Shown: in pieces, positions 47,791 through 59,199 of the stretch | Position numbering within the stretch: position 1 is the stretch's first letter | Layout: the number at the start of each line of letters is the position of its first letter | NCBI RefSeq assembly: GCF_017377715.1 | Contig: NZ_JAFVMF010000012.1 | Span: 1 to 64,000 of the forward strand | Source: Acetobacter sacchari | Lineage (GTDB): Bacteria > Pseudomonadota > Alphaproteobacteria > Acetobacterales > Acetobacteraceae | Reading direction: 5' to 3' | Length of the DNA: 64,000 nucleotides | Program-made: the position numbers and the translations under genes | Notes under the pieces: model-generated | Told to the model about the DNA's origin: nothing | Databases searched by the model: none | Seen by the model: the letters and a program-made list of their open reading frames with translations, nothing else

Positions 47791-47816
47791 TGTCCCGGAG
47801 GCGTCACTCCGAGACA
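47791..47816. terminator. Small hairpin between converging kdsA and ammonia-lyase genes
   Basis: TGTC-C-CGGAG (47791-47800) pairs with CTCCG-A-GACA (47807-47816) with one mismatch and a 6-nt loop. It overlaps the lyase stop codon. There is no T-run, so the terminator role is tentative. Confidence 0.3.
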
Positions 47817-49336
47817 ACCATCGCCACAGGCGTCTCCGCGAGACGCGCTTTCATCCCGGCGATATCTCCGGCCAGCGGCCTGTCGTCGGCATACCGGGCG
47901 ACGCCGCTTCGAACGAACTCAAATATCAGACGAGTGCGCGGAGCCAGATCCCCGGCACATCCGACCAGGTCGCAGGCCTGCGCGGCCGCTAGCAGCTCGA
48001 TCGTCAGAATCAACGCGGTTCGATCGAGAATCGTCTGAGCTTTCATGACGGCCGCGGTTGCGTGGCACAGCATGTCTTCCTGCAATGCCGACGTGACGCC
48101 TCCGTCCAGACTGGCCGGAAATCCATCGCGACGATTGGCCGAAACTAGCGCAGAGGCCGTGTACTGCGCGATCATGAAGCCTGATTCCGCACCAGACGCC
48201 CCCGCCAGAAAAGCAGGCAGCCCACTCAGCACCGGGTTGAGCATCCGATCGAGGCGGCGCTCCGACATCATCCCCAGTTCCGCAATGGCGACGCCGAGCT
48301 GGTCAAAAGCCAGTCCCATATCCGGGCTGACCGCGTGCGCTTCCGACATGGCGAACGGTCCATCGGGACCGTCAAGAAGCGCCGGATTGTCTGTGACGCT
48401 CGCCAGCTCCCGATCCACGCAATCCGCCGCGTTCGCCCAGACGTCCCTGACCGCCCCATGAAGGTGCGGAATGGTCCGTAAGCTGAGCGCGTCCTGCGTA
48501 CGCTTGCCGCGGGCCGCCTCGATCCGCGCCGAACCCTCCAGAAGCTTCGCCATGCGGGCGGCGACAAGCGCCATGCCGAGGCGGGCGCGTAAGGTCGTGG
48601 ACTCAGGTCGAAAAATTACGTCCTGCCCTTCCAGACATTCGAACGTCAGGGCTGCAATAGCGTCCGCCCACTCGAGCCACCGTTCCAGCCGCGCCAGCAG
48701 AAGCGCGCCCATCCCCGTGGCGCACGGCGTGCCGTTGACGAGCGACAGCCCCTCCTTCGCCTCCAGACGCAGAGGCTCCTTGCCTATCCGCGCAAGCGTG
48801 GCGACGCCCTCCGTTTCCCGATCTTCGCCGGGCAACACAGCCGCCCCCTCCCCCACCAGTGTGAGAGCGATATGCGCCATGTGGGTCAGGTAACCGACCG
48901 ATCCGTCTCTCGGGACCGACGGCGTGCAGCCTGCGTTCAGAAGGTCGAGAATCTGCGCAACGACAGCAGGGCGGACGCCCGATCGGCCGTGCGCAAAATT
49001 ATTGACCGCAGCGACCATGATCGCCCGTGTTTCGACAGGCGGCAGTAGCGCGCCAACGCCCACGGCGTGGCTGCGCAGGATGTTATGGGACAGCGCGCTT
49101 TGAGCTTCCCGCGAGACGACGACTTCGGACAACGCGCCGACCCCTGTCGTGACGCCATAAACCCGGTCGCCGCTGGCGACGATGGCGCGACGGCGGTCGT
49201 CTCCGGCAGCCACGCGTGCGAGTGCTGCCGCTGAAAGGATCACGCGCTTCCCCTCTGCGACCGCGGCGACGTCGCGCCAACGCAGACTTTCCTTCAGTTC
49301 GATCACGCCATCGGACGATGCATGGGTGTGCGGCAT
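47804..49336 (-). CDS. Histidine ammonia-lyase-family protein lacking the MIO tripeptide
   Basis: This 510-residue protein is clearly of the HAL/PAL/TAL fold. It keeps the tyrosine loop (Tyr60, YGVTTGVG), the HAVGVG histidine (His90), the LVNGT asparagine (Asn201), KRTQDALSLR and QEDMLCHAT. At the cofactor site the family reads GSVG-ASG-DLAPLAH; here it reads GSVGYLTHMAH (residues 145-155, bases 48872-48904). The three residues that cyclise to MIO are exactly missing. It is therefore unlikely to be an ordinary histidine ammonia-lyase, despite likely automatic labelling as hutH. A HAL-fold lyase without MIO has precedent in ergothionase, which eliminates trimethylamine (recalled, not checked). 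It opens a catabolic island; no hutU or hutI is near. Confidence 0.85.
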   Translation of the reverse strand: MPHTHASSDGVIELKESLRWRDVAAVAEGKRVILSAAALARVAAGDDRRRAIVASGDRVYGVTTGVGALSEVVVSREAQSALSHNILRSHAVGVGALLPPVETRAIMVAAVNNFAHGRSGVRPAVVAQILDLLNAGCTPSVPRDGSVGYLTHMAHIALTLVGEGAAVLPGEDRETEGVATLARIGKEPLRLEAKEGLSLVNGTPCATGMGALLLARLERWLEWADAIAALTFECLEGQDVIFRPESTTLRARLGMALVAARMAKLLEGSARIEAARGKRTQDALSLRTIPHLHGAVRDVWANAADCVDRELASVTDNPALLDGPDGPFAMSEAHAVSPDMGLAFDQLGVAIAELGMMSERRLDRMLNPVLSGLPAFLAGASGAESGFMIAQYTASALVSANRRDGFPASLDGGVTSALQEDMLCHATAAVMKAQTILDRTALILTIELLAAAQACDLVGCAGDLAPRTRLIFEFVRSGVARYADDRPLAGDIAGMKARLAETPVAMVVSE

Positions 49337-49462: not shown

Positions 49463-50668
49463 TCAGAGGGCTGCGCGAAGTTCCCGATGCAGCACAGGAT
49501 AGCAGAACGGAATCGCAAGTCCGGCAACCACGGCGGCCATCAGCGCCAGAGTCAGAAAACTGCCGTGATCCACCACCAGCCCGCCAAGCGGCGCGCCCAA
49601 AGCGAACCCCAGCCTGTCCATTCCACTGCACAAGGTCCCCGCCTTACCAGTGTCGTCGAGAGAGGCGGCGCTCCCAAGCAGATACGCGTAAGACAGCATC
49701 GAAAACACCCAGAATCCCGTGATGGCTATGGCGTAACTCCACGGACTCCAGGCTGCGCAGGAGAAGAAGCAGGCAGCCGCGACGCCCACCAGACTGGTAA
49801 GCAACACGACGGAACGCGGCAGCATCGTCGCGATGACGGCGCCGCCGAAACTGCCAAGCACGCCAGCGATGATTCCGACAGATGACAGGGTGACGATGAA
49901 TTTTTCAGTCAACGCCAGATGGGCGCCGACACGCCCGGCGAACGACCACGCAACGCTTTGACCAAGCGACGACAACGTCCACATGACGACCAGCGCCACG
50001 CCGCCCGCGCTGAGACGCAGCGGCGCACGCTCATGGGCCATCGGCGCGTGAGGAGCCCTGCGGAGCATCAGCAGTAACGGCGTTGCGACCAGCATCGGAG
50101 CGCAAAAAGCGAGAAACGCGCCCAACGGGCCGCATAGACGCGTCGCCAGCGGCACCAGCGATATCGCCCCGACTATGACGATCAGGCCGCCGCCGCTTGC
50201 AATCGAATACACGCGATCGACGTTGCGCGACGCGGACACTGCCTGAATATAGGAGCGCGCCAAAGATCCTGAGGCGACTCCGATCAGAATTGCGCAAGTC
50301 CAGCAGGCGAGCGTCGAGCGCGCGACACTGAAGAGCAGTATGTTTGCGATTGCGCCAAGGGCCGCTCCAGCTACGGCGGTCACGACTGGCGGAAGTGGGC
50401 GATGCAGGCGCGACAGGGCGATCATCGTCAGCGACAGGGCGATGATCTCAAAAAAACCGAACCATCCGGAATTCGTCGCTGAAAAATTCGCGCCAGTCAT
50501 CAACGCGTCGACCTGAAACGGCATCGCAGAGGAGGCCAGATGCGCCGTGCCTGAACCGATACAGGCGCCGATCAGGACCGGCAGAGGCAACACAGCCACC
50601 GACGGAGAATCGTCCCGACTATTTCCTGAGTTTTCGGACTGGAAATCCGCATAACTATCCATCGTCAT
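49463..50668 (-). CDS. MFS transporter, 12-TM type
   Basis: This protein of about 401 residues has twelve hydrophobic segments in two halves with a charged loop around residue 205 (LMLRRAPHAPMAHERAPLRL). It belongs to the major facilitator superfamily. A GSGTAHLASSAMPFQVDALM first helix and a GMDRLGFALGAPLGGLVVDH late segment are typical of small-solute MFS proteins. The start is uncertain: ATGs at 50668 and 50662 both fit, and the former is used. It lies between the ammonia-lyase homologue (126 bp) and the TonB receptor (92 bp), all on the minus strand. Inner-membrane uptake of the same compound as the receptor is the natural inference. Confidence 0.88.
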   Translation of the reverse strand: MTMDSYADFQSENSGNSRDDSPSVAVLPLPVLIGACIGSGTAHLASSAMPFQVDALMTGANFSATNSGWFGFFEIIALSLTMIALSRLHRPLPPVVTAVAGAALGAIANILLFSVARSTLACWTCAILIGVASGSLARSYIQAVSASRNVDRVYSIASGGGLIVIVGAISLVPLATRLCGPLGAFLAFCAPMLVATPLLLMLRRAPHAPMAHERAPLRLSAGGVALVVMWTLSSLGQSVAWSFAGRVGAHLALTEKFIVTLSSVGIIAGVLGSFGGAVIATMLPRSVVLLTSLVGVAAACFFSCAAWSPWSYAIAITGFWVFSMLSYAYLLGSAASLDDTGKAGTLCSGMDRLGFALGAPLGGLVVDHGSFLTLALMAAVVAGLAIPFCYPVLHRELRAAL

Positions 50669-50760
50669 GCGGATATCACTCTCGATCTGTTGGTAAGCGA
50701 ATCGATTTTTGCAGAGCACAGGCGCAACCGATCACGCCCTACCCCCATTCCGATCGATTA

Positions 50761-53220
50761 TCAGAACCCAGTGCTGAAGGTCGCCAGACAGGCGAAATTC
50801 GGCGCCGCGAGAAGCTGTGCCGTGCCCGCGGTCGTTCCCGGCGAATACACGCCCGAGAGATAATGGTGATCGGCCAGATTGATGATATTCAAACGAATTG
50901 AAGGAGACTTCATGAATCCGATCTTCTTCATCCGCGCGCCGATCATCATGTCGACCTGCTTGTAACCCTTGATCTGCTCGTCATTCGTGTAAGTGCTGTA
51001 CTGCTTGTCGACATAGCGAAGCGTCACGCTGCCGAACATCGTACCGTCGTCGTAGTTGAGCGCGACTGACGCCTGCCAACGCGGCGCGGACGGCGCGATT
51101 TTCCCTTTGGTGTTGAGATATCCGCCAGTATCGTCAGGAATATTGTTATCCGTCGTGGCATAGAGGTATTCGCCAGAAGCGTAAGGCGAGAAGTGATGCC
51201 ACGGACGCAGGCCCATCTGGGCGTCCACGCCTCGGATCGTCATGCCGCCGACGTTCATCGCAACAGGCAGCGGGTTGGCGCCGTTATAGGCGTTCACCTG
51301 ATGGTTAGTGAAGTTGTAGTTGAACCCCGTGATGGACGCGTTTCCAAGGCTGCCGGAATACCGCGCGCCGACTTCTTCGACGATGCTGTATTCATTTTTC
51401 AGCTTCGTATTGCCCGTGGTGATCTGCGATCCGTTCCAGGGGTTATCGTAAGCGTTATACATCGCAGTACCGACTGGCGTGCGAAAATTGGTGTTGACGC
51501 TGGCGAAAACCATGACGTTCGGATTGACGTGGTAGTCGATGGACATCCGCGGCAAGGGCTCTGCGGTATTGTAGCCTACCTTGTAATATCCCTCGACAGG
51601 CTGACCAAACGTGCCGTCGCGCGAGATCATCGCTTCCTTGAAACCTGCAGAAATATGCAGGCGATCATTGAGAAGCGTCACCTGATCGCCGATATAGAGC
51701 ATATTGGTCATGGTGATCGTGTGGTACGACTGCTCGCTCAAAAGCGTCCCGTCTGTCAGCTTCAGATTGTAGCGACCATCGAAGTTGGCGGCCTGACCGG
51801 TCGCGGTCAGCGCGGAAAAGGGCTCGAGAGCCTGCATATCGGTATAACCAAACCACCAGCCGAACGTCAGTTCGTTGTGTTTGGTCTTGTATTTCACCGA
51901 CGAATTAAGGCCAGCGTACCCTTCGGTGCCGAGCCAGTTATACATGGCGTTGATGGCTTCGCCTTGCGCGGTGCTATAGGTGGCGGCGTTGCCGGTCGCG
52001 ATCGACGCGCCAGTCGTGCCCGTTCCGTTGTAGTTGGAGCCATTGATCGCCAGCAAACCGCCGTAATCGCCTGCGCCGTTCGAAAGGCTGCCTGCACCGA
52101 ACGGATAGGCGCCGCTTCCGTGATAGACATACGGCGAAACGTCGAAAGTCAGCTTCGGGCTCGCCTCGAAATGCATCGGCGCGCTGATCAGAATGTCGGC
52201 CCAGTTGGTCTGATAAAATTTATAGTAGCTGTTCAAACCGTTATAGCTGGCGTCGTTGACGTTATATGTACCCGAGAAATTGTGGCTCAACCCCTCCTGA
52301 TTCCACTGACTGACGGAATCGTAGGTCGGATAATACGCCGTGTTCTCATTGTTGTAGGATCCGGCGACGGAAATAAAGCTGTTGCCCCACTCCTTGATCG
52401 CCTTGAAATCCATATGACGTCGGTTGTTCCTACCGGGGCCACGCCACGCCTTGCCGGAAAGATTGGAGTAGGAAGCAAACGCGCGAACGCCGCTATGGCC
52501 GATTTCGCCAGTGTCGTAACGGATGAACTGTCGATTCAGCTGATGCGTGCCGTAGCTGACGTCTAACTCGCCGCCATGCTCGTACTTCGGATTGCGCATA
52601 TTCACGGCCATGATGCCGCCAGCGGAGTTCGTCAGTGGCGAATTCAACTCGCCCGACCCCTGCTGCAACTGCACATTATCCATGTTTTCGGAGTCGATCC
52701 ATTCCGACGAATTCGGCGTGTAGTCGTCGGGATCGTTCATCGGCGCACCTTCGAAGGTGTAGCCGATCTGCTGCTGGTTCATGCCGCGCACGGTGATCAT
52801 CGATTCATCGCTGACGCCGAACGGATCGCCCATGGCGACGTTGGCGCCCGGCGCCATCTGGATCAACGCCAATGCATTGGAGGCGGGAGACTGCTTCGAG
52901 ATATATTCGTGCGTAACCGTGCTGACGGCTTTCGCTGCAGTTTCCGCGCGCATCATGCCGCCGCCCGAAACATGCCTGTGCCCGACGGCCGCAACGGCCT
53001 CTGTTCCGGCTGCGTTAAAAACGGTCGGCGCCCGCTTTACAGGCACCGCTGCAGCGGCGCCCCCATTACGTGGAGAAATTGCCGAACTCGCCGCGGCGCT
53101 AGCGCCTGATGACCCGCGATGATGGGCTCGCGTGGCGGCTCCCGCCGCCCCTGCGAGCGCGATCGCCAAAATCGCTGAAACTGCCACGCAGCCGGTAAGG
53201 CATGTCGTGTGTTTGATCAT
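50761..53220 (-). CDS. TonB-dependent outer membrane receptor
   Basis: This 819-residue receptor starts with a signal peptide (about 1-29, ending AGAAGAATR), a low-complexity Ala/Ser linker and a plug domain around residues 90-220. ALALIQMAPGANVAMGDPFG and TVRGMNQQQIGYTFEGAPMN are the plug hallmarks. The barrel has many Asn/Tyr-rich strands and ends in the aromatic C-terminal Phe. The ATG at 53220 gives the signal peptide; the longer frame does not. It follows the RidA gene on the same strand after 357 bp. Such receptors take up siderophores or other scarce, large or poorly diffusing compounds. No TonB/ExbBD or sigma/anti-sigma pair is near, so induction by the local LysR protein is likely. 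Confidence 0.93.
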   Translation of the reverse strand: MIKHTTCLTGCVAVSAILAIALAGAAGAATRAHHRGSSGASAAASSAISPRNGGAAAAVPVKRAPTVFNAAGTEAVAAVGHRHVSGGGMMRAETAAKAVSTVTHEYISKQSPASNALALIQMAPGANVAMGDPFGVSDESMITVRGMNQQQIGYTFEGAPMNDPDDYTPNSSEWIDSENMDNVQLQQGSGELNSPLTNSAGGIMAVNMRNPKYEHGGELDVSYGTHQLNRQFIRYDTGEIGHSGVRAFASYSNLSGKAWRGPGRNNRRHMDFKAIKEWGNSFISVAGSYNNENTAYYPTYDSVSQWNQEGLSHNFSGTYNVNDASYNGLNSYYKFYQTNWADILISAPMHFEASPKLTFDVSPYVYHGSGAYPFGAGSLSNGAGDYGGLLAINGSNYNGTGTTGASIATGNAATYSTAQGEAINAMYNWLGTEGYAGLNSSVKYKTKHNELTFGWWFGYTDMQALEPFSALTATGQAANFDGRYNLKLTDGTLLSEQSYHTITMTNMLYIGDQVTLLNDRLHISAGFKEAMISRDGTFGQPVEGYYKVGYNTAEPLPRMSIDYHVNPNVMVFASVNTNFRTPVGTAMYNAYDNPWNGSQITTGNTKLKNEYSIVEEVGARYSGSLGNASITGFNYNFTNHQVNAYNGANPLPVAMNVGGMTIRGVDAQMGLRPWHHFSPYASGEYLYATTDNNIPDDTGGYLNTKGKIAPSAPRWQASVALNYDDGTMFGSVTLRYVDKQYSTYTNDEQIKGYKQVDMMIGARMKKIGFMKSPSIRLNIINLADHHYLSGVYSPGTTAGTAQLLAAPNFACLATFSTGF

Positions 53221-53577
53221 CTCGCCGCAACTCCTCACCACGACGCCCCAATGCGCCAGTTATGTCCTGCCGCATGCGGCGTCGCACACGTCGCCCCGAA
53301 AGACGCTAACCATTATTGATTATGGTTGCATATACGGAATGTGGGCGACAAGCCAAATTCAAAACATTTTCGGAACAAAAATTGAATGTTGCGATCTTAC
53401 AACACTCACCAAAATCTCCGCGAGACGCGGGACATTCAACAGCCGACGACGCCGGGCCATACTCGCCTTTTTGAGCCGGAAATCAGTCCTCGCAATTGAA
53501 CTCAAATTGGATGGAATAAACGCCGACGATCACCACAAATCACTCACCGAATTGTATATACAATACTACGTCGGCGA
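53221..53577. promoter_or_regulatory. Region upstream of the TonB receptor
   Basis: The 357-bp gap between the RidA stop and the receptor start is AT-rich in its middle (53300-53560). It should hold the receptor promoter. I found no cobalamin-type or other riboswitch signature by eye, and no Fur box. Confidence 0.45.
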
Positions 53578-53985
53578 TTATGGAAGCTCGGCAATTACGT
53601 CCACCTCAATCAACCATTCTGGCCGAGCAAGAGCCACGACGACGAGTCCAGTGAAAACCGGAAATACGCCCTTCATCCACTTGCCAAGCACACGGTAGGT
53701 CGTTTCGCGATGACGGATATCGGTCAGATACACTGTCACCTTGCAGATATGCGCGAGTTCCGCCCCACATTCGCGCAGCAGCAACTCGATATTCTGCATC
53801 ACTTTCTCCGCCTGCCCCTCCGGGTCGCCCACCGCGACATTTTCTCGCGTATCCAGATCCTGAGGAACCTGCCCGCGCAGATAGATGGTCTTGCCAGCCA
53901 CCACCGCCTGGCAGAGATCGTTATCGAGGCTCTGCTCCGGGTAGGTGGCTTTCGTATTGAACGGACGGATGCGTTTGTGAATCAT
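53578..53985 (-). CDS. RidA family (YjgF/UK114) enamine/imine deaminase-like protein
   Basis: This 135-residue protein has the RidA fold. The N-terminal piece HKRIRPFNTKATYPEQ, the KTIYLRGQVPQDLDT segment and KVTVYLTDIRHRETTYRVLG are family features. The key arginine of canonical RidA (in a Cys-x-R or similar context near residue 105) is not obvious, so this may be one of the Rid1-7 subgroups found in catabolic clusters. The ATG at 53985 gives the common start. Rid proteins hydrolyse enamine/imine intermediates from ammonia-releasing or dehydrating enzymes, which suits an ammonia-lyase cluster. Confidence 0.9.
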   Translation of the reverse strand: MIHKRIRPFNTKATYPEQSLDNDLCQAVVAGKTIYLRGQVPQDLDTRENVAVGDPEGQAEKVMQNIELLLRECGAELAHICKVTVYLTDIRHRETTYRVLGKWMKGVFPVFTGLVVVALARPEWLIEVDVIAELP

Positions 53986-54264
53986 ACTCTTGTCTTTCCC
54001 TGACAGTGACGCTCTCATCAGGAACGCCTTGCCTAAACCTGAATAGTCTCAGACGCAGCCCGGCAAGCGAGCCTGACGAAGCAGTAACCACCGCCCCCGT
54101 CACAGCCACGGTGTCCCGGCGATACGTCGCCAACGCGCGGGCGTGACGCCCAGAACATCCGAACAGTAGGGTTGCGCATCGTTCTGACCAAGCAAGGACT
54201 ACCGATGCCTATCATCAGAAAATGCGATGTAAATTTCGAAATAACAATTTTTTACAAAATTCAT

Positions 54265-54942
54265 TCATTCGTCGCCGGGCACCCCATAGGACGGGGCGCC
54301 CAGCGGATTCAGCGCACGACTAAGATAATCGCGCATTTGCGGTCGCCACAGCTCCCACAAGCCGCGCAGATCAGCGACAGGCGCCTCTGACCAGTCGATC
54401 CGCAAGTCGACAAGCGGCCACGCCTCACCCTCGACGATCTGCAATCCTGCCGAGTGCACCGGACCTGCTTCGCCGCCCACAGCCAAGCCAGCCTCCAAAG
54501 CAAGTAGAATCCTTTCAGCCAACTCCTGTTCAGGGTCGGACGCGACAAAGGCCGCAACGATCGCTGCCGGGACGCCGTCATTCGCCAGAAGGTTACCTGC
54601 GGACACGACGTTAGGCGCCAGAGCTTCCGCGTTCACGCCAAGGGTCCGCCCCCCCGACCATATCGCCCCCTCGCCATTTCCATCCACGATGGTCACCTGC
54701 CTGAATTCAGCATAGGTCGCCGCCGCAGACACCCGATCGCGGGCAGCGGCCGCCGACATTCCCCCTGCGAGAAAATCGAGAGCTTTCGGCCCCAGGCGTG
54801 GATCGGTGACGTTCTGGGTCGTCACGGCGCCAACTCCTGCGCGAGCGAAAGCGCATCGCGCCGCGACCGCCGGCGATGACGAAACGACGGCGACGCCGAA
54901 TTGACCCGTACGCTCACATCGGGCGACAATGGAAAACGTCAT
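54265..54942 (-). CDS. DUF1028 protein (Ntn-hydrolase-like)
   Basis: This 225-residue protein belongs to the DUF1028 family, recognised by the start MTFSIVARCERTGQFGVAVV and the GAVTTQNVTDPRLGPKALDF segment. The fold is expected to be Ntn-hydrolase-like, and such proteins are often found beside M20 peptidases and RidA. No function is proven. It is divergent from the LysR gene, with 60 bp between starts, so it belongs to the LysR-controlled set. RidA follows on the same strand after about 280 bp. Hydrolysis of an amide or peptide bond in the same pathway is a reasonable guess. Confidence 0.9.
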   Translation of the reverse strand: MTFSIVARCERTGQFGVAVVSSSPAVAARCAFARAGVGAVTTQNVTDPRLGPKALDFLAGGMSAAAARDRVSAAATYAEFRQVTIVDGNGEGAIWSGGRTLGVNAEALAPNVVSAGNLLANDGVPAAIVAAFVASDPEQELAERILLALEAGLAVGGEAGPVHSAGLQIVEGEAWPLVDLRIDWSEAPVADLRGLWELWRPQMRDYLSRALNPLGAPSYGVPGDE

Positions 54943-55002
54943 TCTCTATACCTCTCTATTGACGGGTGTCGGCATGCCCGATGGACCGTTCGGAGCAACT
55001 CC
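54943..55002. promoter_or_regulatory. Divergent DUF1028 / LysR operator region
   Basis: Only 60 bp separate the minus-strand DUF1028 start from the plus-strand LysR start, a classic LysR arrangement. A TCTATACCTCTCTATT stretch at 54944-54959 is the most likely operator core. GGAG at 54992-54995 is the ribosome-binding site of the LysR gene. Confidence 0.5.
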
Positions 55003-55920
55003 ATGCGGTTCACCCTGAGACAAATCGAATATTTCGTGGCGGCTGCTGAAACTGGATCGATCACAGCGGCCTCGCGACAGGTCAACATTTCGCAGCCGTC
55101 CATATCCGCAGCCATTTCCCAACTGGAGGCGGCTTTCAACATTCCGCTTTTTATCCGCCATCACGCCGCCGGATTGTCGTTGACGCCGGAAGGCCAGAGC
55201 TTTCTTCGGGAAGCGCAAAGCCTTCTGCTTCATGCGCAGGAATTCGACGCCGAAGCAGCGGGTCTGTCCAACCGGATCAATGGCCAGGTCGAAATCGGCT
55301 GCATGACGACGCTGTATTCGCTGATCGTCCCGGAACTGCTGCAGTCGTTTGAAAACCATCATCCGGCTGCGCGGCTTCTCGTCAGCGCCGGGCATCACGC
55401 CGAACTTGTGGACCGCCTGCGACGAGGGGAAATTTCCGCATGCCTCGCCTACGATCTTAACACCCCGCCGGACGTCCAGTTCGAACCGCTGGCCACCTTG
55501 CCCCCCTTTGTCATGGTGTCGACCACGCACAGGCTTGCGCGCCGCAAATCCGTTTCGCTGTCCGAACTGATCGACGAACCCTTTCTCCTGCTCGACCTGC
55601 CTCTGTCGCGTGACTACTTCCTCGGCCTGTTCAGTCAGCAGACTCTGTCGCCGAAAATCGCCGGACGTTTCGGCAGCATCGACGTTGTTCGCAGCCTTGT
55701 AGCGCGCGGCGACGGTTACGGGCTGGCGAACGCCCGGCCGCGCAACAAGGCGGCGTTGGACGGAAGGGCGCTGGCCTACCTCGCCCTGAAAGACGACGTC
55801 CGCCCGCTGCGCTACGGCATAGCGACGATCTCCGGAGTGCGACGGACCGCCCGCTGCCGCGCTGTTCTCGATGTGTGTCGCAAGCTGCTCGCCGGAAAAA
55901 AATTGCCCGGCAGCGACTGA
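55003..55920 (+). CDS. LysR family transcriptional regulator
   Basis: This 305-residue LysR protein has its winged helix in residues 1-60 (LRQIEYFVAAAETGSITAAS, then QPSISAAISQLEAAF) and an effector domain from about 90. It resembles OxyR/CynR-type LysR regulators of catabolic operons. The ATG at 55003 is supported by a GGAG 7 nt upstream and by the conserved start; the open frame extends 34 codons upstream without similarity. Its position between DUF1028 and the M20 deacetylase marks it as the local regulator of the island. The inducer is presumably the compound being degraded. Confidence 0.93.
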   Translation: MRFTLRQIEYFVAAAETGSITAASRQVNISQPSISAAISQLEAAFNIPLFIRHHAAGLSLTPEGQSFLREAQSLLLHAQEFDAEAAGLSNRINGQVEIGCMTTLYSLIVPELLQSFENHHPAARLLVSAGHHAELVDRLRRGEISACLAYDLNTPPDVQFEPLATLPPFVMVSTTHRLARRKSVSLSELIDEPFLLLDLPLSRDYFLGLFSQQTLSPKIAGRFGSIDVVRSLVARGDGYGLANARPRNKAALDGRALAYLALKDDVRPLRYGIATISGVRRTARCRAVLDVCRKLLAGKKLPGSD

Positions 55921-55930
55921 CGCGTTTCTT

Positions 55931-57100
55931 TCAGACAAGCGCATCAACGAGCTTTGACAGGAACCTCTCGCACCCGGCCAGTTCGCCACGCGTGACGTAT
56001 TCGTCCGCCTTATGCGCACGATCTATCGACCCCGGACCGCATATGATCGTGTCCAGACCAAGTTTTTCCTGAAACAGCCCGGCCTCCGTCCCGAATCCTA
56101 CAGTTACGACGTCATTACGTCCTGCTGCAGCCAGCACGAGCGCGCCTGTCGCAGAGCCCGCCTCGGCTTTAAGGCCCGGGTATGCGTTAATGACCTCGAT
56201 CCCGATTCTACCGCCCGGAAACTCGCACTGAACGCGCTCTGCATGCCGCTGCAGACGCTCGATCCAGACATCCGACGCTTCTGCGGGCAAAAGCCGCATC
56301 TCAAAGTCCACGGTACACAGATCGGGCACGATATTCAGCGCCACGCCGCCAGATATCAGCCCAACCTGCGCGGTGTTGTGCGGCGTCTCGAACATGGCGT
56401 CCTGCCGTCCGTTCGCGATCATATCCGCCTGTATGGCCTCGATTTCGGAAATCATGCGCGAAGCCATAAGAATTGCGTTGCGACCCAGCGCAGGATTAGC
56501 GGAATGCGCAGCCTGTCCATGACACGTAATCCGCGCCGCGACTTTGCCCTTGTGCGCGACGGCGATCCGTAACCCGGTCGGTTCGCCGACCACGCACCCG
56601 GCGGCGGCGAACTCCCGCTCCTGCAATCGTCGCAACAGCGAATGAACGCCGACACAACCGATTTCTTCATCATAGGAAACGGCGAGATGCAGCGGCCGAG
56701 CCAGGGACGGTCGCGCCGCCGCGTCGCGGATCGCCGTGACGGCGCAGGCCAGAAACCCTTTCATGTCGCTTGAGCCGCGTCCGAACAACTTGCCGTCGCG
56801 CTCTGTCAGGCCGAACGGATCAGTGGTCCACGACTGCCCTTCGACCGGCACCACGTCGCTATGAGCGGACAACACGAGGCCGTCTGGACGATCAGGACCG
56901 ACGCTTGCGATAAGCCCCGCGCGCCCCGGTTCGTCCCCCGGCACGATTTCCACGCGCGCGCCCGCCTCCGTCAGCGTGGCGGCGAGCCAGTCGATCAATT
57001 CAAGATTATCGTGACGACATATGGTCGGAAACGCGACGAGACGTTCCAGCAGCGCCACCGTTCCTGCCGCAGTCTTCCGATCCGAGTGCTCCGTCTCCAT
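55931..57100 (-). CDS. M20 family deacylase, ArgE/acetylornithine deacetylase type
   Basis: This 389-residue two-metal hydrolase has the metal ligands in LSAHSDVVPV (His), GRGSSDMKGFLA (bridging Asp), YDEEIGCVG (catalytic Glu-Glu), VVGEPTGL (Glu) and RAHKADEYV (His). This is the ArgE/DapE subfamily of M20, which removes acyl groups from amino acids. In a catabolic cluster it more likely releases an N-acylated intermediate than makes ornithine. It converges on the LysR gene (10 bp between stops). The start has normal length for the family. Confidence 0.92.
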   Translation of the reverse strand: METEHSDRKTAAGTVALLERLVAFPTICRHDNLELIDWLAATLTEAGARVEIVPGDEPGRAGLIASVGPDRPDGLVLSAHSDVVPVEGQSWTTDPFGLTERDGKLFGRGSSDMKGFLACAVTAIRDAAARPSLARPLHLAVSYDEEIGCVGVHSLLRRLQEREFAAAGCVVGEPTGLRIAVAHKGKVAARITCHGQAAHSANPALGRNAILMASRMISEIEAIQADMIANGRQDAMFETPHNTAQVGLISGGVALNIVPDLCTVDFEMRLLPAEASDVWIERLQRHAERVQCEFPGGRIGIEVINAYPGLKAEAGSATGALVLAAAGRNDVVTVGFGTEAGLFQEKLGLDTIICGPGSIDRAHKADEYVTRGELAGCERFLSKLVDALV

Positions 57101-57570
57101 CGCGCCGCCTCACATGAAATCATTGGCGCGCCGGAGCCCCGACGCCCGGTGCGGCCATAGCCGCACTGGACAGAATGCACGCAACCCCCATCGCCCACGC
57201 ATCGAAACTTCCGAGGCGGGGACACGCCTGCGCCTAGCCAACGCCGCCAAAATAAGCGCCGACGCCTACGAAACGATCAATCCTTGTTCAAGGCTTTAAA
57301 TCGCGGAAAGCGGGCAGGTTCCGATCTTCATTTCTATAACAGCAAACGATCCGGAGCAGGCAAGAGCATTTCCGCGTCGTTCAAATGTTTGGCGCGCTCG
57401 CCACTCTGACGACGTCGCCCATTGCGGCCAGATTGGCGCTGTCACGATAAGCTTATACAATCAGGGCCATATATGAGCCTGAAATGCAGATCGCTCAGGC
57501 TCACGCAGACCCCGGACAGCGGGCGCGACGCGCGCAAGGGGCTTCAGCTTTATCTTCGGGGAACACAGGC
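57101..57570. other. Divergent non-coding region, deacylase / amidohydrolase
   Basis: This 470-bp region lies between the M20 deacylase (minus) and the amidohydrolase (plus) and should hold both promoters. Its last 87 bases (57484-57570) are open in frame with the amidohydrolase and could be coding if the gene starts earlier. No RNA gene or strong hairpin was seen. Confidence 0.5.
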
Positions 57571-59199
57571 ATGACGCTCGACCTGGCCCTTCTCAACGCC
57601 ACGGTTCATACAGGATCTCACACTTGGCCCCTGATCGGAGCGGCCGTTGGGATATCCAATGGACGCATCGTCCATATCGGCCCGACGGAAGAGATCCGCG
57701 CCTTATGCCGCCCTGAGACGACTATTCGAAATCTGGACGGCATGTTCCTGACGCCCGGCTTCATTGACGTGCACGTTCATGTGTTAATGGCGGCGGAATA
57801 CCTCTCTGCGGTAGGTCTTCGCGACGCCCGTAGCATGCAAGAGGTCGTGGACCGTGTTGCGACGCGCGCCGCCGCCACTCCGGACGCGCCCTGGATATAC
57901 GGGCTCGAATGGAGCTACGGCTACCCTGACCTGCCCGGCGGTGTCTTCGACCGCGCGATGCTGGACGCGGTCTCTTCCGACCGGCCGATCCTGCTTGTTT
58001 CCGCCATGGCGCACGCCGCCTGGGCCAACAGCCGCGCTCTCGAAATTGCGGGAATCACCGCCGAGACCCCCGACCCGCCGAACGGCGAGATCGTCCGCCG
58101 GCCTGACGGTTCCCCCTCGGGCTGGCTCAAGGAGCACGCCGTTGATCTGGTCCGCCGCCACATGCCCGCTGCAAATGAGCAGGATCGGCGACGCGGCCTC
58201 GATCTGGCGTTCCAGGAAGCGGCGCGTTGCGGCGTGACCCGGATGCAGAGCGCAGCCTTCGACGAATCGCTCCTTCCCATGCTGCACGATCTTGAGTTAT
58301 CCGGAAAACTCCCTATCCGGATTGGCATGATGACGGAAATCGCGCCGCCCTCAATGGCGGAAGCGAGACTGCGCGACGCAGTTGCGCTGCGCGCAGCCTA
58401 TGACACGGATATGCTCCGCATCGACGGGCTGAAATTCTTCCTCGACGGCGTGCTTGAATCCCATACCGGATCCATGCCGGATGGCTATGCGGATCGGCCG
58501 GATCTGGCCGGCGCGTTGCTGTGGGAGAGGGAACCCTATATCGACGCCGTCCGCCGCGGCATGGAAGCTGGTTTCACCACATGGACCCACGCCATCGGTC
58601 CCGGCGCCATCGCCCTCTCTCTGGACGCCATTGAAGCCGCCGGGCCGCTGTCGCATCGTCTGCGGCCGCGCGTAGAGCATGTCGAACTCCCTTACCAGGC
58701 GGATATTGATCGCTTTTCTCGCATTGGCGCCATCGCGAGCATGCAGCCTGTCATGGTCGCGCCGTCCGATGTCTGGATGGGCATGGAAGGCGTGTGGGAA
58801 GCCCGCGTCGGAACGCAACGCCTGCAAAACGCCTTTCCCATGCGCGCCCTTCTGGATGCTGGGGCCAGGCTCGCATTTGGCACCGACTGGCCCATAGTGC
58901 CGCTTGATCCAAAGCTGGGCATGCGCAAGGCGGTGCTGCGCCGTCCGCTTGGCGCGCCCGCCGACGCCGGGTGGGTGAAGCGGCAGGCGATAACGTTCCC
59001 GGAAGCCTTTCACGCCTATACTGAAGGCGCGGCCTACGCAGCAGGGCGTGACCTGGACGAGGGGAGGATAGCCGAGGGCGCGTACGCCGACCTTACGGTG
59101 CTTTCCGCGAACCCGTTCACGGTCGATCCCGACGTCCTCCCTTCACTTCAGAACGTCCTGACCATCGTGGGCGGGCGCATCACGCACGAGACGCTGTAA
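57571..59199 (+). CDS. Amidohydrolase family protein (YtcJ-like)
   Basis: This 542-residue metal-dependent hydrolase has a small N-terminal beta domain, the metal motif HVHV in FIDVHVHVLMAAEYL, later histidines in TTWTHAIGPG and RVEHVELPY, and the aspartate in AFGTDWPIVPLDP. It is the YtcJ subgroup (exoenzyme-regulatory-protein-like amidohydrolases), whose substrates are mostly unknown but include cyclic amides and N-acyl compounds. The ATG at 57571 has a GGGGA ribosome-binding site 8 nt before it. It is divergent from the M20 deacylase, so both may be under the same regulator. Hydrolysis of a ring or amide bond in the pathway is inferred. Confidence 0.9.
   Translation: MTLDLALLNATVHTGSHTWPLIGAAVGISNGRIVHIGPTEEIRALCRPETTIRNLDGMFLTPGFIDVHVHVLMAAEYLSAVGLRDARSMQEVVDRVATRAAATPDAPWIYGLEWSYGYPDLPGGVFDRAMLDAVSSDRPILLVSAMAHAAWANSRALEIAGITAETPDPPNGEIVRRPDGSPSGWLKEHAVDLVRRHMPAANEQDRRRGLDLAFQEAARCGVTRMQSAAFDESLLPMLHDLELSGKLPIRIGMMTEIAPPSMAEARLRDAVALRAAYDTDMLRIDGLKFFLDGVLESHTGSMPDGYADRPDLAGALLWEREPYIDAVRRGMEAGFTTWTHAIGPGAIALSLDAIEAAGPLSHRLRPRVEHVELPYQADIDRFSRIGAIASMQPVMVAPSDVWMGMEGVWEARVGTQRLQNAFPMRALLDAGARLAFGTDWPIVPLDPKLGMRKAVLRRPLGAPADAGWVKRQAITFPEAFHAYTEGAAYAAGRDLDEGRIAEGAYADLTVLSANPFTVDPDVLPSLQNVLTIVGGRITHETL

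Follow-up and report, generated by a model that had tools for sequence, protein, structure and literature searches.

A histidine ammonia-lyase-fold protein of Acetobacter sacchari without the MIO tripeptide, a candidate hercynine trimethylamine-lyase

Histidine ammonia-lyase (HAL, HutH) is marked by an Ala-Ser-Gly (ASG) tripeptide at the place of its self-made cofactor, 4-methylideneimidazol-5-one (MIO). The stretch of Acetobacter sacchari DNA examined here (the window; 64,000 nucleotides, positions 1 to 64,000 of contig NZ_JAFVMF010000012.1) harbours a gene for a HAL homolog from which exactly this tripeptide is missing. Which reaction, if any, would such a protein catalyse? Taking the sequence and the gene context together, we consider it probable that this HAL-fold protein is a lyase that works without MIO and acts on hercynine (N,N,N-trimethyl-histidine, or histidine betaine), providing urocanate for the hut pathway along with trimethylamine. 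No description of a hercynine lyase was seen in our searches of open-access literature.

The altered active site

The gene is an intact open reading frame on the minus strand, a strand that an earlier note on this DNA had left unnamed (Table 1). Its product matches the aromatic amino acid lyase profile PF00221 nearly end to end (450 bits, residues 18-476), and is also matched in fold. On the other hand, it differs from HutH in scoring below the cut-off of the NCBIfam hutH model (TIGR01225; 410.4 bits against 539.15). A canonical HutH encoded at L001 in this genome carries GSVGASGDLAPLAHM and reads PEKGSVGASGDLAPLAH at the MIO place, where the protein encoded in the window reads PRDGSVGYLTHMAH and is three residues shorter in the alignment. 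The deletion of Ala-Ser-Gly and the position of GSVGYLTHMAH, both claimed in the earlier note, were thus borne out, and we found in addition that the Asp following the tripeptide is replaced by Tyr149. As the note had named an ASG elsewhere as grounds for refutation, we looked for these letters in the rest of the protein. They occur at residues 54-56 (ASGD, right before the Tyr60 loop; listed at region 49172-49176) and at residues 380-382 (ASGA), neither being the MIO place. Among the 70 relatives in which the Tyr loop was located, only L034 (ASGD) and L097 share the former, and we take both occurrences to be due to chance. In a predicted model of the protein, the predicted local distance difference test (pLDDT) values were 73 at residues 141-150 and 59 at residues 411-420.

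The residues of HAL retained in the protein are Tyr60, His90, Asn201, Gln281, Arg287 and Glu420, of which we take Tyr60, His90, Asn201 and Glu420 to correspond to Tyr53, His83, Asn195 and Glu414 of HAL. The alignment supports the residue list of the earlier note (Tyr60 loop, His90, Asn201, QED segment), which overlooked two further changes. Tyr280 of the HAL QDxY motif is absent, QDALSLR with Leu284 standing in place of QDPYCLR, and the GGNFH loop has been recast (SEAHAV).

The missing tripeptide and the Leu at the Tyr280 place recur in a clade of 71 loci (L034-L103 and L118), which comprises 12 relatives from the order of the window, five plasmid copies and 54 loci (the named loci) that proved MIO-less among the best 80 loci considered in a scan of a genome collection. 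GS[VA]GYL is present in 71 of 71, so that Ala-Ser-Gly is missing from the MIO place of the window gene and of every relative. QD[AP]LS[LMI]R, with Leu at the Tyr280 place, is likewise present in 71 of 71, against QDxY in 38 of 38 ASG entries (L034-L130). The other active-site residues are conserved across about 50% divergence. The clade spans alpha-, beta- and gammaproteobacteria, and the genera of the named loci include Rhizobium, Burkholderia, Paraburkholderia, Mesorhizobium, Nitrospirillum, Thalassospira, Salinicola, Halomonas, Pseudomonas and Rhodoferax. Within the order of the window, 142 of 299 genomes gave a match at 1e-60. Thirteen, including that of the window, stand apart (at least 422 bits, 48-100% identity) and all read GSVGYL; the next-best 17 fetched matches (L017-L033) are all ASG. 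The five plasmid copies examined are all annotated as histidine ammonia-lyase.

Could the deletion be an artefact of sequencing or a sign of decay? A second genome (G152) has this gene at L034, identical at 477 of 511 positions with the stop counted (94%), and the ratio of nonsynonymous to synonymous substitution rates (dN/dS) is 0.17. This copy, conserved under such constraint, and the GS[VA]GYL motif in all 71 relatives rule out a sequencing error or a pseudogene. A related proposal is that this HutH paralogue has lost catalysis and serves in regulation or as a scaffold, as the loss of both the MIO tripeptide and Tyr280 might suggest. Considering that the remaining active-site residues have been kept over such divergence, that dN/dS is low, and that nine genomes described below contain a MIO-less gene without any ASG lyase, we regard this as highly improbable.

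Partners of the MIO-less genes

Neighbouring genes were annotated by tblastn, and those of the named loci were counted within 8.5 kb. A hut gene lies near the MIO-less gene in 43 of the 54, and hutC is present in 42 of these 43. HutC responds to urocanate. Among the 12 relatives from the order of the window, ten (L035, L036 and L038-L045) have the MIO-less gene clustered with hutU, hutI, hutF, hutG and hutC, although hutF of L040 was seen in only one of two neighbour annotations. Partners from the urocanate pathway, together with HutC, suggest that the product is urocanate. HutC regulons are reported often to contain several HutH paralogues (PMC5343134).

Concerning the substrate, 12 of 13 named genomes tested hold a separate hut-type (QDPY) ASG lyase besides the MIO-less gene, suggesting that histidine is already served. 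In eight of the 54 named loci, the gene for an ASG HutH is found no more than 8.5 kb from the MIO-less gene. We also surveyed 121 genomes of the Salinicola family (Halomonadaceae), of which 48 gave a match and nine contain the MIO-less form, confirmed by motif in all nine. In eight of these nine, a betaine/carnitine/choline transporter (BCCT) gene adjoins the MIO-less gene on the same strand at a distance of 29-86 bp. BCCT genes were found at none of 20 canonical-only halomonad hut loci, all 20 of which encode ASG lyases, nor at L192, the second hut locus of G338. The difference (8/9 against 0/20) gives a Fisher probability of 2.1e-6 when shared descent is ignored; the nine carriers do share descent and therefore do not represent nine independent events. 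Four of the nine MIO-less regions (L193-L196) contain an ASG hutH as well. The order in L194 and L196 is hutI-hutU-BCCT-MIO-less gene-hutH(ASG), whereas L200 and L208 read hutU-hutH without the intervening pair, indicating that the BCCT and MIO-less genes were added as a pair to an operon that kept its own HutH. Betaine transporters, together with the retained ASG HutH, argue for a substrate other than histidine. Betaine-type ATP-binding cassette (ABC) systems with OpuAC were found directly upstream of the MIO-less gene in seven of the 54 named loci, and the ABC ATPase of L091 passes the cut-off of the betaine/proline/choline model TIGR01186.

In one Salinicola island (L099:8284-16439), a BCCT, the MIO-less lyase, hutI, hutG, an ergothionase-like gene (GSLGAADLAQ) and an OsmF-like binding protein occur together. 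Its OpuAC-type system lies 5 kb from the MIO-less gene, by the ergothionase-like gene, and was left out of the count of seven. The island is possibly a joint locus for hercynine and ergothioneine. At another locus, L051, a Pfam search of a pigment-like neighbour found no family.

A number of observations weigh against hercynine as the substrate. At eleven of the 54 named loci, some of them on short contigs, no hut gene lies within 8.5 kb. The island in the window itself lacks a hut gene, and of the features of the hut clusters only major facilitator superfamily (MFS) and TonB homologs are present there; its RidA, DUF1028 and M20 genes are not explained by a hercynine lyase. One halomonad carrier, L191, is without a BCCT. 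The hut-linked BCCTs themselves (L099:8284-9975 and L101:7879-9546) read WTMYDWSIWIAYAP where BetP reads WTIFYWAWWISWSP, so that the aromatic box is only partly kept and a new Asp is present. Betaine-type ABC matches also lie near four of the 20 canonical halomonad loci (L207 and L209 with an OsmF-like binding protein, L204 and L205 partial). Furthermore, the OpuAC-type HutXWV of S. meliloti is reportedly a histidine transporter that also takes betaines, which makes OpuAC linkage alone ambiguous. The matches at canonical loci and HutXWV together weaken the OpuAC argument, and leave the BCCT argument as it stands. The commonest adjacent transporter, found in 26 of the 54 named loci, is a polar amino-acid ABC system, and among solved structures its binding protein is nearest to octopine- and nopaline-binding proteins rather than to betaine binders.

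The last finding would suit a different N-substituted histidine as substrate, mono- or dimethyl-histidine or the opine histopine for instance, which would likewise yield urocanate. SolA, of the N-methyl amino-acid oxidase family, is present within 8.5 kb in ten of the 54 named loci and agrees with such a substrate as well as with hercynine. Taking into account that the leaving groups of these compounds are hardly better than ammonia, and that quaternary amines are the usual cargo of the BCCT and OpuAC families, we judge this alternative to be quite unlikely.

The distribution of the ASG lyases must also be weighed. When 13 genomes of the order were searched with PF00221, ASG lyases were detected in only four (G000, G152, G159 and G113). 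In the nine others, each with a hut-linked MIO-less gene, this search found no ASG lyase. One further protein of G159, L153, was left unclassified. The MIO-less gene is therefore the only candidate lyase for the hut cluster in nine genomes, which would also fit a true histidine ammonia-lyase that dispenses with MIO, activates the imidazole solely by acid/base chemistry and takes the place of HutH in some genomes. Such an enzyme would also be compatible with the HisP-like ATPase and hutC genes beside the MIO-less gene in rhizobia, and with the retention of the substrate-side residues of HAL. However, it would hardly be expected in genomes that already have an ASG HutH, either close by or, as in 12 of the 13 named genomes tested, somewhere in the genome. 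The BCCT linkage and the joint loss of Tyr280 and MIO, as seen in ergothionase, also speak against it, as does the poor quality of ammonia as a leaving group when MIO is absent. We consider histidine an unlikely substrate, and hercynine remains our preferred one.

Ergothionase and a second MIO-less subfamily

Ergothionase, the trimethylamine lyase of Treponema denticola (PDB 6s7j), is likewise a HAL-fold protein without MIO, and has Leu at the Tyr280 place (QDPLSFR). Trimethylamine, its leaving group, would be common to the protein encoded in the window. That MIO and Tyr280 are missing from both fits a leaving group that needs no activation. The two nevertheless differ in several respects. Ergothionase has SSIGEGDITTLSH at the site, and hercynine, the substrate proposed here, lacks the thione sulfur of ergothioneine. 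The score of our protein against 6s7j is only 138 bits, compared with 266 bits against an archaeal HAL. Relative to HAL, the deletion is of three residues in the window clade and of one residue in the ergothionase-like group. In trees that did not include 6s7j itself, the clade of the window gene (the GY clade) received 100/99 support and the ergothionase-like rows formed a separate group. Identity with ergothionase was rejected on the basis of this score, the deletion pattern and the separate clade. A second ergothionase acting on ergothioneine is, in our estimation, very improbable for the same reasons, and also because hut enzymes act on urocanate and not on thiourocanate, and because the genome encodes a nearer relative of 6s7j. 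The clade would thus resemble ergothionase in its proposed mode of action and yet not group with it, and resemble HutH and yet lack its defining feature.

The nearer relative, L003:1318-2856 (contig C157:136695-138230), is the third PF00221 protein of the genome. It is ergothionase-like, with GSIGCADVGLMSH and QDPLSFR, and its best PDB match is 6s7j (187 bits). The gene adjoins an MFS-like gene and lies about 30 kb from the canonical hutH. Ergothionase-like genes are present in six of the 13 MIO-less carriers, against 14 of the 299 genomes of the order (Fisher 4.6e-6, uncorrected), a co-occurrence that would be expected if hercynine and ergothioneine share producers. Another PF00221 protein, L152 (G067:C73:8466-9830), has GALSEGDLAPMAH at the MIO site and represents another MIO-less form.

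A second subfamily without MIO, designated GY2, was found at L041:15184-16809, L043:15313-16887, L217:7989-9539 and L218:8004-9551. Its members share GSVGYL and QDALSLR with the window clade, but differ in a GGNGHG loop and in their partners, which are CoA transferase, 3-hydroxyacyl-CoA dehydrogenase and enoyl-CoA hydratase genes instead of hut genes. The two annotated records examined, L217 and L218, are arranged as operons of a UTRA regulator, an OpuAC ABC system, the lyase, CoA transferase, 3-hydroxyacyl-CoA dehydrogenase and enoyl-CoA hydratase; at the L041 locus, the CoA transferase and the dehydrogenase are present. GY2 is a candidate lyase for another amino-acid betaine, a role that this operon content suits, and the GY motif therefore seems to characterise betaine lyases at large. 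Adjoining the GY2 gene of L041 is a very divergent PF00221 protein (L041:17195-18613) with HADGNLLLTNAD at the place of the MIO loop.

Grouping of GY with GY2 was not rejected (p-AU 0.297). One change of MIO state suffices on the tree, and the addition of five ASG rows, PAL-like by motif, left the count of losses unsettled; as both trees are unrooted, they cannot be used to count MIO losses. The only hint of separate losses is the contrast between the three-residue and one-residue deletions.

Surroundings of the gene and the proposed reaction

Genes for an MFS-like transporter, a TonB-dependent receptor and a LysR-type regulator are present at higher coordinates of the window than the lyase gene (Table 1). 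Ten hut clusters have a relative of the MFS-like gene (44-48% identical) next to the MIO-less gene, and relatives of the TonB receptor (36-38% identical) are present in the same ten. Positions 53578-59199 contain RidA-like, DUF1028, LysR, ArgE-type M20 and Amidohydro_3 genes, which, like the lyase, MFS and TonB genes, are conserved in G152 (L034), at 93-100% identity.

Table 1. Features of the lyase gene and its island in the window
Feature	Position	Strand	Basis
MIO-less HAL-fold lyase, 510 residues; proposed hercynine trimethylamine-lyase	47804..49336	-	Intact open reading frame, PF00221, fold match
Former MIO site, residues 145-155, GSVGYLTHMAH; Ala-Ser-Gly deleted, next Asp replaced by Tyr149	48872..48904	-	Alignment
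Tyr60, candidate beta-proton base	49157..49159	-	Kept in alignment; role inferred from HAL
His90, imidazole-side residue	49067..49069	-	Kept in alignment; role inferred from HAL
Asn201	48734..48736	-	Kept in alignment
QDALSLR, residues 281-287; Gln281 and Arg287 kept, HAL Tyr280 replaced by Leu284	48476..48496	-	Alignment
Glu420, imidazole-side residue	48077..48079	-	Kept in alignment; role inferred from HAL
MFS-like transporter	49463..50719	-	Pfam MFS_1, 26.2 bits, below cut-off of 33.4
TonB-dependent receptor	50761..53241	-	Profile search
LysR-type regulator, possible island regulator (role inferred)	54901..55920	+	Profile search

The earlier note had proposed that a quaternary amine is eliminated without MIO from a histidine-like betaine. 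This proposal gains support from the hut and hutC neighbours, the BCCT and OpuAC systems, Leu284 and the separate ASG HutH. Hercynine would suit the expected product, substrate and leaving group together, and its MIO-free loss of trimethylamine would follow the example of ergothionase. In the reaction that we propose, hercynine would be taken up by the TonB receptor and the MFS permease in the case of the window, by the BCCT in halomonads, and by ABC systems in rhizobia and burkholderias. The imidazole would be held and polarised by His90 and Glu420 and the carboxylate held by Arg287, with the bulky NMe3 group sitting where the MIO loop and Tyr280 have made room. Tyr60 would take the beta proton. 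Trimethylamine would depart as a neutral amine, so that the enzyme could do without an electrophilic cofactor and without Tyr280 as proton donor. The urocanate formed would enter the hutU-hutI-hutF-hutG route and lift repression by HutC. MIO-free elimination by HAL variants is known with 4-nitrohistidine, whose beta proton is more acidic.

Going beyond the single protein, we are somewhat inclined to see in the proteins with GSVGYL and Leu at the Tyr280 place a class of HAL-fold betaine lyases that work without MIO and have gone unrecognised, being labelled across Proteobacteria as histidine or aromatic ammonia-lyases. The branch of the window would convert hercynine to urocanate as a hidden entry to the hut pathway, which some acetic-acid-type bacteria may use only for hercynine. 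The second branch would convert another amino-acid betaine to an acrylate burnt via CoA esters, and ergothionase would be one case of recurrent MIO loss. Fungi, actinomycetes and cyanobacteria are reported sources of hercynine (PMC7653990, PMC4595634), and a biocrust study describes histidine betaine that vanished even though uptake was seen in none of the isolates, indicating unknown consumers (PMC4595634).

If the proposal is correct, the hutH label is wrong for a widespread gene, and the hut pathway gains a second entry point. Hercynine would have a dedicated catabolic enzyme, whose genes name candidate bacteria for its consumption, and the environment would have an additional source of trimethylamine. 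The HAL scaffold, finally, would be able to shed its self-made cofactor when the leaving group permits.
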